Source of the DNA: Conexibacter sp. SYSU D00693 | GTDB taxonomy: Bacteria; Actinomycetota; Thermoleophilia; Solirubrobacterales; Solirubrobacteraceae | NCBI RefSeq assembly: GCF_017084525.1 | Contig: NZ_CP070950.1 | Location: forward strand, 3,286,001 to 3,350,000 | Length of the DNA stretch: 64,000 bases | Reading direction: 5' to 3' | Shown: in pieces, positions 7,939 to 33,832 of the stretch | How positions within the stretch are numbered: position 1 is the stretch's first letter | Layout of the letters: every line of letters begins with the position of its first letter | The notes under the pieces: model-generated | Told to the model about the DNA's origin: nothing | Seen by the model: the letters and a program-made list of their open reading frames with translations, nothing else | The model's database searches: none | Program-made: the position numbers and the translations under genes

Positions 7939-8559
7939 GTGCATCGTCAGCGAGATCCCGAGCTGACCAGCGCCACCGCGGCGGACCTCGCCGCGGACTT
8001 CCCGGACCTCGTGGTCCGACAGCGCTGGTGCGCCGCACCGGACGCCGCTCTCCGTCCGGTGCGACGGCGTGTGGCCGAGCGCCTGCGGGCGCTCGGCCTG
8101 CGCGTCGACGGCGCGCGGGCGGCCGCCGCACGGACGCAGGCGGTCGCCTCGGCCTACCGCGTCCTCGCCCGCCAGGTCGGCCTGGACCCCGAGGCCGACG
8201 GCCTGCCGCTCGAGCGCCTGCTGCGCGACCGGCTCCTGCGGGGCACCTTCCAGCCGCGCGGCCCTGTCGTCGACGCGTGCGCCGTCGCGGTGCTCGAGAC
8301 CGGGGTGCCCGTGTGGGCGCTGGACGCCGGCGTCGTCGACGGTCCCCTACGCGTGCGCGTGGAGACGTCGGGCGCGCTCGTGGTGGCCGACGACCACCGC
8401 GCGCTGGCCCCGCTGCTCGGCGACCCGGCGGCCGAGCACGCGCCGGGCGACGGGAGCGTCGAGGTCGTCCTCTTCGCCGTCGACGTGCGCGGGGTCCCCG
8501 CCGGGACCGTCGACGAGGCGCTGTGGATCGCGGCCGCCACACTGACCGGCGACCGATGA
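7939..8559 (+). CDS. Solo B3/4-domain protein (PheT editing-domain-like)
   Basis: About 206 residues resembling the stand-alone B3/4 domain related to the editing module of phenylalanyl-tRNA synthetase beta subunit. Seen: AADLAADFPDLVV near the N-terminus, SAYRVLARQVGLDPEADGLP, a basic stretch LERLLRDRLLRG, PRGPVVDACAVAVLETGVPV, and a C-terminal strand-rich part ending DEALWIAAATLTG. Family members are often annotated as possible aminoacyl-tRNA editing or RNA/DNA-binding proteins, but the function of solo members is uncertain. The start is uncertain: the frame is open upstream to 7831, and GTG 7939 is the best candidate that keeps the conserved N-terminus. Its end overlaps the next gene by ATGA. 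Confidence 0.72.
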   Translation: MHRQRDPELTSATAADLAADFPDLVVRQRWCAAPDAALRPVRRRVAERLRALGLRVDGARAAAARTQAVASAYRVLARQVGLDPEADGLPLERLLRDRLLRGTFQPRGPVVDACAVAVLETGVPVWALDAGVVDGPLRVRVETSGALVVADDHRALAPLLGDPAAEHAPGDGSVEVVLFAVDVRGVPAGTVDEALWIAAATLTGDR

Positions 8560-8828
8560 CCGCCGCCCTCTTCCTCGGCCTGGTCGTGGGCGGCGCCCTG
8601 CTCGTCGTGGTCGTCGCCGCCCTGTCGCGCACGGGACGGCGCCTCGACGTGCTGGACTGGGACCCCACCGCCCGGCAGTCGGCGCGCGAGGCCGCCGAGG
8701 ACGAGGAGCTCGAGCTCGGGATGGCCGAGCACAACGCGCGCCGGGTGGCGCAAGGGCTGGCGCCCGAGGACGAGCTCGAGCTCCAGCGCCGGCTGGCGGC
8801 CGAGCGCCGCGGGCGCCGTCGGGAGTGA
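8556..8828 (+). CDS. Small membrane-anchored protein of unknown function
   Basis: 90 residues: one N-terminal membrane segment (about residues 4-23, LFLGLVVGGALLVVVVAALS) followed by a charged, glutamate/arginine-rich helical tail with coiled-coil character. The ATG overlaps the stop of the B3/4 gene (ATGA), so the pair is probably translationally coupled. I do not recognise a family. A scaffold or regulator at the membrane is conceivable but not supported further. Confidence 0.7.
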   Translation: MTAALFLGLVVGGALLVVVVAALSRTGRRLDVLDWDPTARQSAREAAEDEELELGMAEHNARRVAQGLAPEDELELQRRLAAERRGRRRE

Positions 8829-8847
8829 GGGGCGAAGTCCCGGGCGC

Positions 8848-9030
8848 GGGACGTTCGGGGCCATCCGTTGGCGGATCGACCGCCTGGAGAGCGGTGAATC
8901 CGCCAATCGATGCTCAAGCGGCCCGGGGCGACCGTGACCCTGCACGTCGGCGCGCCCGGTGATGCCGGACCGCAGGGTCACGACGCCCGGACCCGCAAGC
9001 CCGTCCACGGAGGGGCGGCCGCGGGCGGTG
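8848..9030. repeat. Two-hairpin repeat element, copy A
   Basis: GGGACGTTCGGGGCCATCCG is followed by hairpin 1 (arms 8868-8876 and 8898-8906, TTGGCGGAT and ATCCGCCAA, inner arms ACCGC/GCGGT), then hairpin 2 (CGTGACCCTGC at 8933-8943 with GCAGGGTCACG at 8972-8982), then a shared tail beginning ACCCGCAAGCCCGTCCACGG. About 75 bp of the core is identical to copy B 325 bp downstream. Related copies lie at 30606 and 30938. No convincing coding potential. Confidence 0.8.
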
Positions 9031-9130
9031 CCCCTGCCTCGCTGCCGACCAGCGCGCGCCGCATCCCCAGGGCCGCGCCCGGACGGAGGTCCGCGCCGGC
9101 CGCGGTGGTGGACGACGCCGCCGCTGATCG

Positions 9131-9300
9131 GCACCGAGGGAGAGGGACCGATCCACCCGCGCATGGGCGCGCGGGACGTTCGGGGCCATCCGTTGGCGGA
9201 TCGACCGCCTGGAGAGCGGTGAATCCGCCAATCGATGCTCAGGCGGGTCCGGGACGGCGCCCGAACCCGCAAGCCCGTCCACGGAGGGGGCGGCCGCCGG
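9131..9300. repeat. Two-hairpin repeat element, copy B (lacks hairpin 2)
   Basis: It starts with GCACCGAGGGAG, which is shared with copy D and, minus one C, with copy C, reaches GGGACGTTCGGGG at 9173, and forms hairpin 1 with arms 9193-9201 and 9223-9231. The core is identical to copy A. The segment carrying hairpin 2 is missing, making the distance to the tail motif 51 bp shorter than in copy A. The 690 bp from 8829 to 9518 hold only these repeats, diverged tail sequence and the inverted repeat at 9440-9479. Confidence 0.78.
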
Positions 9301-9439
9301 TCGTTCCCCCTCCCTCACCGCCGACCAGCGACCGCCGCATCCCGAGACCGCGCCAGGACGGAGCTCCGCAACCCGGACCGCGCTCCCCGCAACGCGCCGT
9401 CGACCACGACGACGCGCCACCTTCCCCGCCGACCCTGAC

Positions 9440-9479
9440 CCGGCGCCACAGCCCCGGCGGGACGCGACTGTGGCGCCGG
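9440..9479. promoter_or_regulatory. Perfect 12-bp inverted repeat upstream of alpha/beta hydrolase
   Basis: CCGGCGCCACAG (9440-9451) and CTGTGGCGCCGG (9468-9479) are perfect complements with a 16-base spacer, ending 39 bases before the hydrolase ATG. The half-site GCGCCACAG recurs at 10500-10508 just after the hydrolase gene. It could be an operator or a terminator of transcripts crossing the repeat block. Confidence 0.5.
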
Positions 9480-9518
9480 ACCAACCCGCGGGGGTGGCGG
9501 GACGCGCGAGCATGAGCC

Positions 9519-30513: not shown

Positions 30514-30605
30514 GGGGGCGCGCTCCCGGCTGGAGCTCCGCCCCGGGCGGTCGCTGGGCGCGGACGCCCTCGCGTCTCGCGGCGGGGAGGAGTCGGGCGG
30601 GCCAC

Positions 30606-30781
30606 GCACGAGGGAGTGGAAGGGCGGGCCGGCGCCGGCCCCGCAGGACGTTCGGGGCCATCCGTTGGCGGATTCTCCGTCTCGGGAGCGGAGAATCCGC
30701 CACTCGATGCCGGGAGGGCGCTGGAGGACCGTGACCCTGGAGTTGACCGCGTATGAGGCGGTCAACTCCAGGGTCACGGTC
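30606..30781. repeat. Two-hairpin repeat element, copy C with perfect 24-bp stem
   Basis: GCACGAGGGAG begins the unit; GGACGTTCGGGGCCATCCG at 30646 leads into hairpin 1 (14-bp perfect stem, arms 30666-30679 and 30689-30702, 9-base loop). Hairpin 2 follows: 24-bp perfect stem, arms 30727-30750 and 30758-30781, loop GTATGAG. Hairpin 1 shares the outer TGGCGGAT/ATCCGCCA with copies A and B, but its inner pairs differ on both arms, so pairing is kept. The 628 bp from 30514 to 31141 hold only copies C and D and their spacers. Confidence 0.82.
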
Positions 30782-30937
30782 GAGTGCCCCGGAAGGCCAG
30801 GGTCAGCGCCGGCGGCTCCGGACCTTCCACTCCTCGGTGCCGGACGGCGACCGCCGCGTCCCCCTCACACGATGGGACCTCCCGGTCGCCTGGAGTGCCG
30901 CTCGAGGCGGACGCTGGGTCCTGGCGGTGGTCGTCTC

Positions 30938-31070
30938 GCACCGAGGGAGAGGAAGGGCGGCCGGCGCCGGGCCCGCAGGACGCTCGGGCCATCCGTTGGC
31001 GGATTCTCCGTCTCGGAAGCGGAGAATCCGCCACTCGATGCCGGGAGGGCGCTGGAGGACCGTGACCCTG
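30938..31070. repeat. Two-hairpin repeat element, copy D (hairpin 2 truncated)
   Basis: The unit begins GCACCGAGGGAG; hairpin 1 is again a 14-bp perfect stem (30997-31010 with 31020-31033). Only the left arm start GACCGTGACCCTG (31058-31070) of hairpin 2 remains before unrelated sequence. The copy lies 331 bp after copy C. Confidence 0.8.
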
Positions 31071-31141: not shown

Positions 31142-33832
31142 ATGTCCAGGGTCTCCGCCGCCGTCCTGGGGGCGATCGCGTCGCTGTGCGCGCTCGCCGT
31201 CCCGGCCACCGCCTCCGCCGCCGACGGGCGCTACGACGTCACCGTCGCGCGCTCGCAGTACGGCATCCCGCACATCAAGGCCAAGGACCTGGCCAGCGGC
31301 GCGTACGGCTACGCGAGGGCGATCGCGCAGGACAACGTCTGCACGCTCGCCGAGGTCTACGTCACGGTCAACGCGCAGCGCTCGCGGTGGTTCGGCCCGA
31401 ACGGCAGCTACGAGATCCGCGGCAACGGCTCGCGCGCGAACAACCTCAACTCGGACTTCTTCTACCAGCGCATCAACGACGAGCGGCGCATCGAGCGCCT
31501 GCTCGACGTGGCGCCGCCGGTCGGCCCGCGCGCGGAGCTCAAGCAGGGCGTGAAGGGCTTCGTCGCGGGCTGGAACGACTGGCTGGAGGAGGTCGGCGGG
31601 CGCGACGGCATCCCGGACCCGACGTGCCGCGGTGAGGCCTGGGTGCGGCCCATCACCGAGATGGACGTCTGGCGGCGCTTCTACCAGCTGTCGCTGCTGG
31701 CCTCGTCGGGCGTCGCCATCGACGGCATCGCCGGCGCCAGGCCACTGGTCGGCGGCACGGAGGCCGACGCCCTGAAGGCGGCCCGCGCGCTCAAGCCGGG
31801 CGAGCTCGACGAGCGCCTCGGCGGCCTGGGCTCCAACGCCTACGGCCTGGGCAAGGACGCGACGGCCAGCGGCCACGGCATCGTCTACGGCAACCCCCAC
31901 TTCCCGTGGCAGGGCCCCGAGCGCTTCTACCAGGCGCACCTCACGATCCCCGGCAAGATGGACGTGATGGGCGGCTCGCTGCTGGGCGTCCCGCTCATCA
32001 ACATCGGCTTCACCCACGGCGTCGCCTGGAGCCACACCGTGTCGACCGCGCGGCGCTTCATCCCCTACGAGCTGCGCCTCGTCCCGGGCAGTGCGACGTC
32101 CTACGTCGTCGACGGCCAGGTCAAGCGGATGAAGGCCCGCCGCGTGACCGTCGAGGCCAAGCGCGGCGGCACCGTCCAGAAGGTCTCGCGCACCCTGTAC
32201 AGCGACGCGGAGGGCCGCCCGGTCCTGACGTCGATCCTCGGCCTGCCGGTGTTCCCGTGGACGCCCGAGCGGGCGTACGTCCTCGAGGACGCCAACGACG
32301 ACAACTTCGGGCGCCTGCTCAACCACTTCTACGAGATCAACCAGGCCCAGTCGGTCGACGACGTCGAGGCGGTGCTCGAGAAGTACCAGGGCATCCCGTG
32401 GGTCAACACGATCGCCGCCGACACCGCTGGCAACGCCTACTACGCGGACATCGGCTCGATCCCCAACATCCCCGAGAGCAAGCGCCAGGCGTGCCAGACC
32501 GTCCTCGGCGTCGTGACCCAGGTGCTCCAGCGCCTCATCGTCCTCGACGGCTCGCGCTCGTCGTGCCTGCCGGGCACCGACAGCGACGCGATCGTCCCGG
32601 GCATCCTCGGCCGGTCGAAGATGCCGTCGCTGCGCCGCAGCGACCACGTGTCGAACATGAACGACTCGTACTGGCTGACCAACCCCGATCAGCCGCTCGA
32701 GGGCTTCCCGCTGGTCATCGGCGACGAGCGCACCGCGCGCAGCCTGCGCACCCGGGTGGGCATCCGCCAGATCCAGGACCGGCTCGCCGGCCGCGACGGC
32801 CTGCCCGGCAACCGCTTCGACGTGGACGACGTCCGCGCCATCGGCATGGGCAACCGCGTCTTCGGCGGCGAGGTGTGGCGCGACGACCTCGTCCGGCTCT
32901 GCCGCACGCTGCCGCTGGCCGTGTCCCTCGCCGGCCCGGTCGACGTCTCCAAGGCCTGCGACGTCCTGGCCAGGTGGGACCTCCAGGAGGACCTCGACTC
33001 CCGCGGCGCGCTGCTGTTCCGGCGCTTCGTCACGCGCCTCACCGGCCTGCTGCCGATCCCGCTCCCCTACCCGGCCGGCCCGTTCGCCGAGCCGTTCGAC
33101 GCGCAGGACCCCGTCGGGACGCCCAAGGGCCTGAGCACGCTCAACCCGCTGACGATGGACGCCCTGGGCCAGGCCGTGAAGGACCTCCAGGGGGCGGGTC
33201 TCGCGCTCGACGCGCCGCTGCGCGACGGCGCCGCCGTCACCCGGCGCGGCGAGCGCATCCCCATCCCGGGCGGACCCGGCGGCGGCGGCCAGTTCAACGT
33301 CATCACGCCCCGCTGGAACGCCAAGCGCGGCTACGTCGACGTCGACCACGGCTCGAGCTACGTCCAGGCCGTCGAGCTGACGCCCGGCTGCCCGAAGGCC
33401 CACACGATCCTCACCTACGGCGAGTCGACCAACCCCGCCTCGGAGCACTCGAGCGACCAGACCAAGCTCTTCTCCGAGGGCAAGTGGGTCACGCCGCCCT
33501 TCTGCGCGAAGGACCTCAAGGCCGACCGGTCGCTGGTGACGACGCACGTCGTGCGTCGGGCGGCCGGCGACCCGCTCGGGACCGTCGCCTTCACCGAAGC
33601 GCGCGGCAACGCCCGCCCGCGGCTGGTGCTCCAGCTCAAGCGCGCCGCCCGCGTCGTCGTGTCCGTCAAGCAGGGCACGAAGGTCGTCCGGCGCATCGTG
33701 CGCACGAAGCTCCCCGCCGGCGAGCGCGTGCTCAAGCCCCGTCTGCGCACCGGGGCGCAGACGGTGACGATCACGACGAAGGCGGGCCGCCGGTCGGCGC
33801 AGGTGCGCCTGAGGGTGCAGCAGCCGCGGTGA
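31142..33832 (+). CDS. Secreted Ntn-hydrolase acylase (penicillin/aculeacin/AHL acylase family)
   Basis: 896 residues. Signal peptide 1-27 (ending ASAADG), alpha-subunit region with YGIPHIKAKDLASGAYGYA, spacer, then the autoproteolysis site GGLG-Ser231 and SNAYGLGKDATASGHGIVYG with NPHFPWQGPERFYQAHL, the start of a beta subunit with Ser231 as N-terminal nucleophile. The NPHFPW form resembles aculeacin A/acyl-homoserine-lactone acylases more than classical penicillin G acylase (inference from motif). It would hydrolyse an amide-linked acyl chain outside the cell. The C-terminal ~100 residues form an extra basic strand-rich module. Its end overlaps the MscS gene by 62 bases on the other strand. 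Confidence 0.92.
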   Translation: MSRVSAAVLGAIASLCALAVPATASAADGRYDVTVARSQYGIPHIKAKDLASGAYGYARAIAQDNVCTLAEVYVTVNAQRSRWFGPNGSYEIRGNGSRANNLNSDFFYQRINDERRIERLLDVAPPVGPRAELKQGVKGFVAGWNDWLEEVGGRDGIPDPTCRGEAWVRPITEMDVWRRFYQLSLLASSGVAIDGIAGARPLVGGTEADALKAARALKPGELDERLGGLGSNAYGLGKDATASGHGIVYGNPHFPWQGPERFYQAHLTIPGKMDVMGGSLLGVPLINIGFTHGVAWSHTVSTARRFIPYELRLVPGSATSYVVDGQVKRMKARRVTVEAKRGGTVQKVSRTLYSDAEGRPVLTSILGLPVFPWTPERAYVLEDANDDNFGRLLNHFYEINQAQSVDDVEAVLEKYQGIPWVNTIAADTAGNAYYADIGSIPNIPESKRQACQTVLGVVTQVLQRLIVLDGSRSSCLPGTDSDAIVPGILGRSKMPSLRRSDHVSNMNDSYWLTNPDQPLEGFPLVIGDERTARSLRTRVGIRQIQDRLAGRDGLPGNRFDVDDVRAIGMGNRVFGGEVWRDDLVRLCRTLPLAVSLAGPVDVSKACDVLARWDLQEDLDSRGALLFRRFVTRLTGLLPIPLPYPAGPFAEPFDAQDPVGTPKGLSTLNPLTMDALGQAVKDLQGAGLALDAPLRDGAAVTRRGERIPIPGGPGGGGQFNVITPRWNAKRGYVDVDHGSSYVQAVELTPGCPKAHTILTYGESTNPASEHSSDQTKLFSEGKWVTPPFCAKDLKADRSLVTTHVVRRAAGDPLGTVAFTEARGNARPRLVLQLKRAARVVVSVKQGTKVVRRIVRTKLPAGERVLKPRLRTGAQTVTITTKAGRRSAQVRLRVQQPR

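Follow-up and report, generated by a model that had tools for sequence, protein, structure and literature searches.

A modular intergenic repeat with inverted ends and interchangeable hairpin cassettes in the chromosome of Conexibacter sp. SYSU D00693

BOX elements of Streptococcus pneumoniae and S. suis are built on the plan boxA-(boxB)n-boxC, with boxD, boxE and boxF variants (PMC3049150). REP sequences and BIMEs are imperfect palindromes that lie dispersed between genes, at gene 3′ ends; they form mosaics of types and are species-restricted, and the repeat described here shares all these features (PMC2817692, PMC8266576, PMC3733652). REP dimers nested in longer palindromes have been recorded in A. 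variabilis and H. neapolitanus (PMC3733652). On our best reading, the repeat resembles the BOX elements of pneumococcus and BIMEs most closely, with a sequence and layout of its own.

The genome searched is a single 4.43-Mb contig, of which the window, i.e. the whole stretch of 64,000 nt that was analysed, covers positions 3286001-3350000. Coordinates below are those of the window unless a locus label or the genome is named. A preliminary description of the window had proposed two tandem copies of a structured element (A and B) upstream of a hydrolase gene, with a period of 325 bp, a shared tail and one second hairpin as the difference between them. The alignments agree with each of these points. 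An 85-nt block at 8844-8928 is repeated at 9169-9253 with 95% identity and a period of 325; a shared tail lies at 8980-9015 and 9254-9289 (94% identity) and a further one at 9022-9070 and 9298-9346 (82% identity). The core GGACGTTCGGGGCCATCCG has exact matches at 8849, 9174 and 30646, while three matches, even with up to three mismatches allowed, were reached in none of 100 shuffles. In a global alignment exactly 51 nt of A are missing from B, and this clean difference is A's second hairpin (8929-8979 plus edges). Hairpin cassettes can be gained or lost precisely, as the comparison of A with B demonstrates.

Element A opens with a tentative left-end remnant at 8786-8831 on the plus strand (weak local match of 8.3 bits to the end model R2 described below, E 6.7e-4 in a 201-bp search), which overlaps the 3′ end and TGA stop codon of the upstream ORF (8556-8828). 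The last codons and the TGA of this ORF may stem from element A's left end; REP ends that supply stop codons have been recorded elsewhere (PMC3733652). The 52-nt cassette P1 follows at 8861-8912 (plus strand; 78 bits, E 6.6e-15 with the model R1, see below), with an imperfect stem formed by CATCCGTTGGCGGAT and ATCCGCCAATCGATG and a predicted fold of -30.0 kcal/mol (z -5.8). Cassette P2 (GTGACCCTG ... CAGGGTCAC) occupies 8929-8984 (plus strand; predicted fold -34.3 kcal/mol, z -4.0) and is the part precisely missing from B. The right end of A, an inverted 58-nt end, is at 9032-9088 (minus strand, R2 35.8 bits); the left end of B, at 9086-9143 (plus strand, R2 42.3 bits), overlaps it by 3 nt at the palindrome GGAGGTCCG. 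Element B continues with a P1 identical to that of A (9186-9237, plus strand) and closes with a right end at 9308-9366 (minus strand, R2 41.3 bits). The repeat as first described is real, and its bounds have to be moved: P1 starts at 8861 and the structure extends from position ~8786 (tentative) as far as 9366. A strong hairpin, CCGGCGCCACAG...CTGTGGCGCCGG, at 9440-9479, 40 bp before the hydrolase start, had been included in the repeat and lies outside element B and the repeated structure.

Hairpin 1 (P1) had been reported to recur as a second tandem pair 21 kb away (period 331), and it does, at 30658-30709 and 30989-31040. Element C has a tentative left end (GAGCTCCGCCCCGGGCGGTCGC...) at 30533-30573 (plus strand; weak R2 match of 1.9 bits only), a P1 at 30658-30709 (plus strand, R1 76.5 bits), a P2 with a near-perfect 23-bp stem at 30727-30781 (plus strand; predicted fold -50.3 kcal/mol, z -12.4) and a partial match to the right end at 30831-30870 (minus strand, R2 29.0 bits). 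The left end of element D lies at 30893-30950 (plus strand, R2 22.6 bits), the C/D junction being again a right end followed by a left end, here 22 nt apart. The P1 of D is at 30989-31040 (plus strand, R1 75.8 bits), within a fourth core copy (30974-31041) whose left flank is slightly different; the first 21 nt of P2 follow at 31050-31070 (plus strand, 100% match to P2 positions 1-21), and the element is cut off after this partial P2, 71 bp before a gene at 31142. In A/B and in C/D alike, the closest relative of a P1 is its pair partner. The common architecture of two pairs only 21 kb apart could point to nothing more than one region having been copied to a second locus by recent segmental duplication. 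This explanation, whose probability we consider negligible, is refuted by the copies found across the chromosome (at least 33 of P1 and at least 89 ends, see below), and A/B differs from C/D both within P1, at several positions, and outside the modules.

The 85-nt block gave many dispersed BLAST matches in its own genome. R1, a covariance model of the 52-nt P1 built from 25 copies, located P1 at no fewer than 33 distinct places genome-wide (E < 0.003). A search for further genome copies was a test named in the preliminary description; since many were found, a repeat without further copies is excluded, and that description's picture of a structured non-coding element is supported, as a dispersed one, by the P1 copies together with the ends. 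The R1 covariance search gave no P1 among the matches listed for six genus mates; across 232 genomes of the order, three single matches of 39-41 bits elsewhere (L246-L248) were among the matches listed. L246 and L248 (~40 bits), in two distant genomes of the order, were rejected as P1, as they are unrelated hairpins of similar length and other sequence. BLAST searches with P1 over 60 relatives yielded two weak matches only, those with P2 in 40 relatives none, and plasmid and phage collections and IMG/VR gave no match. A 16-mer scan of genome contigs was uninformative, its 119 matches being at the chance level for 257 Gb (~120). The mean pairwise identity of P1 copies is 79%. Covariation in P1 showed no excess over shuffles, and for this reason we do not claim a selected RNA structure for it.

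One genus mate (G001) carries an unrelated family of its own, consisting of imperfect intergenic palindromes of ~100 bp that stand in tandem in two gaps; members were seen at L200:2674-2875, L200:8606-9279, L198:18590-18705 and L204:1542-1617. This family suggests that analogous elements arise per species.

On reading the loci we noticed that an outer motif in opposite orientation flanks P1 and P2. An early loose regular expression for these ends produced mostly false matches and was replaced by R2, a sequence-only end model made from an alignment of 29 end copies. The frame ends are ~58 nt long and inverted, with the consensus GCGCTCCGCTCGGGCG...CGCTGNTCGGCACTGAGGGAGGG. With R2, at least 85 ends were found in the own genome below E 1e-3 (best 5e-12), and at least 89, in 53 gene gaps, were placed after loci had been added; the counts are lower bounds that come partly from loci picked through earlier matches. 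In genus mates the R2 matches listed were at chance level only (up to 22 bits). Neighbouring ends less than 500 bp apart form 25 inverted (+ −) pairs with a total span of 243-451 bp, seven abutting (− +) tandem junctions, including those of A/B and C/D, and four other arrangements. Because end pairs are mostly inverted and other arrangements few, we take the unit to be a two-ended element; the period of 325-331 then equals the element length, since the two elements of a tandem pair are fused end to end. Repeated end-to-end duplication with variable hairpins, as initially proposed, stands, but the unit had been misread: hairpin 1 is one cassette of a two-ended element. An unusual array was observed at L184:2592-3195, where one left end is followed by three consecutive right ends ~75 bp apart.

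The cassette menu includes at least five families: P1, the GTGACCCTG-type with two inner stems, the GTGAGTGGGG-type and the GTGACGCCTCG-type. The P2 palindrome GTGACCCTG ... CAGGGTCAC is mostly 45 nt long, and its inner stem is of at least two types. When element-bearing gaps were searched de novo for hairpins, five families turned up at two or more loci each: GTGACCCTGGAGTTGACCGCC, GTGACCCTGTCATCTCCGGCG, GTGAGTGGGGACTTGCGCTCG, GTGACGCCTCGTGCATGC and P1. Most P1 copies, having mismatches, escape the stringent criterion used. For the GTGAGTGGGG family there are at least 12 forward and at least 12 reverse matches in the own genome, as compared with 0 for a reversed control pattern, and no match was listed in genus mates. 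An end is situated within 450 bp of 19 of the 33 P1 copies and 30 of the 38 P2 copies; the others are solo (14 of 33 for P1). The hairpins are thus separable from the frame, as some P1 and P2 copies stand alone.

Locations were classified with gene positions from a codon-usage gene caller; the control consisted of 400 kb sampled at regular intervals along this genome, with 126 gaps. All 33 P1 copies are intergenic (20 in convergent, 12 in co-directional and one in divergent gaps), and 19 of the 29 gaps with P1 are convergent versus 12 of 126 control gaps. The gaps with ends comprise 27 convergent, 23 co-directional and three divergent ones, against 12, 68 and 46 in the control (Fisher p = 5e-9 for the convergent excess and 7e-6 for the divergent deficit). 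Both P1 and the frames lie between genes, with a strong bias towards gene 3′ ends. Two P2 hairpins are found inside predicted ORFs, which may be spurious. The 76 flanking proteins include no family with more than three members, and transposases are not among their 25 commonest families.

The strong 3′-end bias is what one would also see if the hairpins were primarily functional, acting as bidirectional terminators or 3′ mRNA stabilisers that are selected at convergent gene ends and spread because a good terminator is copied. Like high-GC intrinsic terminators without U-tracts, they are GC-rich hairpins just behind stop codons between convergent genes. P1 is the clear main hairpin in about five of the 12 short convergent gaps that contain it, but others hold a second strong hairpin, and several elements start right behind an ordinary GC-rich terminator-like hairpin (L187 2344-2373; L176, L185). 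In P2 the inner arms form 9.5 of 12 pairs within a copy versus 6.6 across copies (permutation p 1e-4), a complementarity that arises partly from, and is confounded by, sequence subtypes; P1, however, lacks excess covariation and there is no U-tract. Unlike terminators, the hairpins share a 52-nt sequence at 33 or more places and sit in a complex frame, often with an ordinary hairpin also present. Genus mates manage without them. Moreover, pneumococcal BOX, RUP, SPRITE and IS elements, i.e. mobile repeats and insertion sequences, show the same bias to convergent gaps and gene 3′ ends, which the authors of that study read as tolerated insertion (PMC3049150). A primary function in termination or mRNA stability is therefore unlikely in our judgement. 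The strong predicted hairpins could also be those of a trans-acting small RNA or a riboswitch family, for which we see very little chance: no Rfam family reaches its gathering score in the window and no credible match lies below that score, the elements are located behind genes and not in leaders (divergent gaps 3/53), and the flanking genes have no common family.

The genome has three Y1_Tnp (RAYT) genes, at its positions 2918729 (L029), 3380575 (L030) and 286145 (L031), and one could assume that the hairpins are classical REP sequences mobilised by these TnpA_REP transposases. P1 is a dispersed intergenic imperfect palindrome at 33 or more places, and its location bias is REP-like (PMC3733652), with convergent and co-directional gaps frequent and divergent ones rare (20, 12 and 1). 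An internal mismatch is conserved in most P1 copies; such a mismatch is needed by E. coli REPs for TnpA_REP activity (PMC8266576). Still, no unpaired GTAG or CGTC tag adjoins the stem end in the flanks of the 33 P1 copies, and a CGTTCGGGG-like left flank is present in only a subset of them. The three Y1_Tnp loci contain neither P1 nor any convincing match to P2, whereas REP copies of the GTAG type flank a RAYT gene; each RAYT here is flanked by a different palindrome of its own (GGTGCCAGGCACC, GGGGACTGTCCCC and GGGGTCTGACCCC types). Copies of these three palindromes were also seen dispersed in random genome samples. The P1 hairpin is 52 nt long versus 20-40 nt in REPs, its orientation in tandems is direct and not alternating, and a two-ended frame is foreign to REPs. 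Mobilisation as REP sequences by the RAYTs of this genome is thus highly improbable.

The architecture as presented in PMC3049150 makes BOX a closer counterpart. Both are modular and non-autonomous, with fixed outer modules, inner modules variable in number and type, a variable total length, an excess between convergent genes, predicted RNA stem-loops and no transposase of their own. Our elements depart from BOX in that one sequence, present in inverted copies, supplies both outer modules and each inner module is a palindrome in itself that is also found solo; their host is of high GC content. With MITEs they have in common that they are short, non-coding, dispersed and intergenic, with inverted ends of ~58 nt (25 inverted end pairs); they differ in that the ends are imperfect and the interior is exchangeable, and no full-length transposase-bearing element was found at the end loci examined for one. 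At 25 element boundaries, whose exact ends are uncertain, there was no consistent direct repeat that could be a target-site duplication, only short chance matches. The sole wide end pair (L271, 3.35 kb) encloses housekeeping genes and no transposase. No empty site could be identified at the hydrolase, as the genus orthologues are not syntenic upstream. Lacking both a tag and a cognate RAYT, the repeat does not qualify as a classical REP, and as neither target duplications nor a transposase partner were found, it is not proven to be a MITE. A partial literature search did not find such elements described in this kind of host, which is weak evidence of novelty.

Elements A and B are probably two copies, fused end to end, of an intergenic repeat that is modular, non-autonomous and, within the genus, specific to this species. 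We hold mobility with tolerated insertion to be primary and a role in termination or mRNA to be secondary, because the distribution, species restriction, fusions and clean cassette gain or loss fit non-autonomous repeats, and because P1 lacks covariation. The elements would have spread as selfish non-autonomous DNA through an enzyme acting in trans, which may since have been lost, and would persist behind gene ends where insertion does little harm. Local recombination at palindromic ends shared by two elements could produce tandems, and cassettes could be lost through hairpin deletion during replication. If transcribed, the elements would place strong RNA hairpins at mRNA 3′ ends, where they may secondarily aid termination or mRNA stability. 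The initial view of an 'actively' rearranging element is not supported: P1 copies are divergent and no transposase partner was found, and given this divergence (mean identity 79%) the mobility may be old. It is also conceivable, though decidedly doubtful, that an enzyme inserts, removes or swaps palindromic cassettes precisely within the two-ended frame and also places solo cassettes at gene ends; such hairpin-cassette exchange would differ from the transposition of RAYT/REP systems as well as from the usual movement of MITEs.

One high-GC chromosome thus carries a BOX-like modular repeat whose ends are inverted and whose hairpins, of at least five kinds, are interchangeable; the same chromosome also has three conventional RAYT/REP systems. 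The combination lets one ask whether it is transposition that makes mosaics of this kind, or recombination together with slippage, and raises the question of what moves palindromes that lack a RAYT; the mover of CGTC-type REPs is likewise an open question (PMC3733652). For the genome itself, the element accounts for a class of long intergenic gaps.
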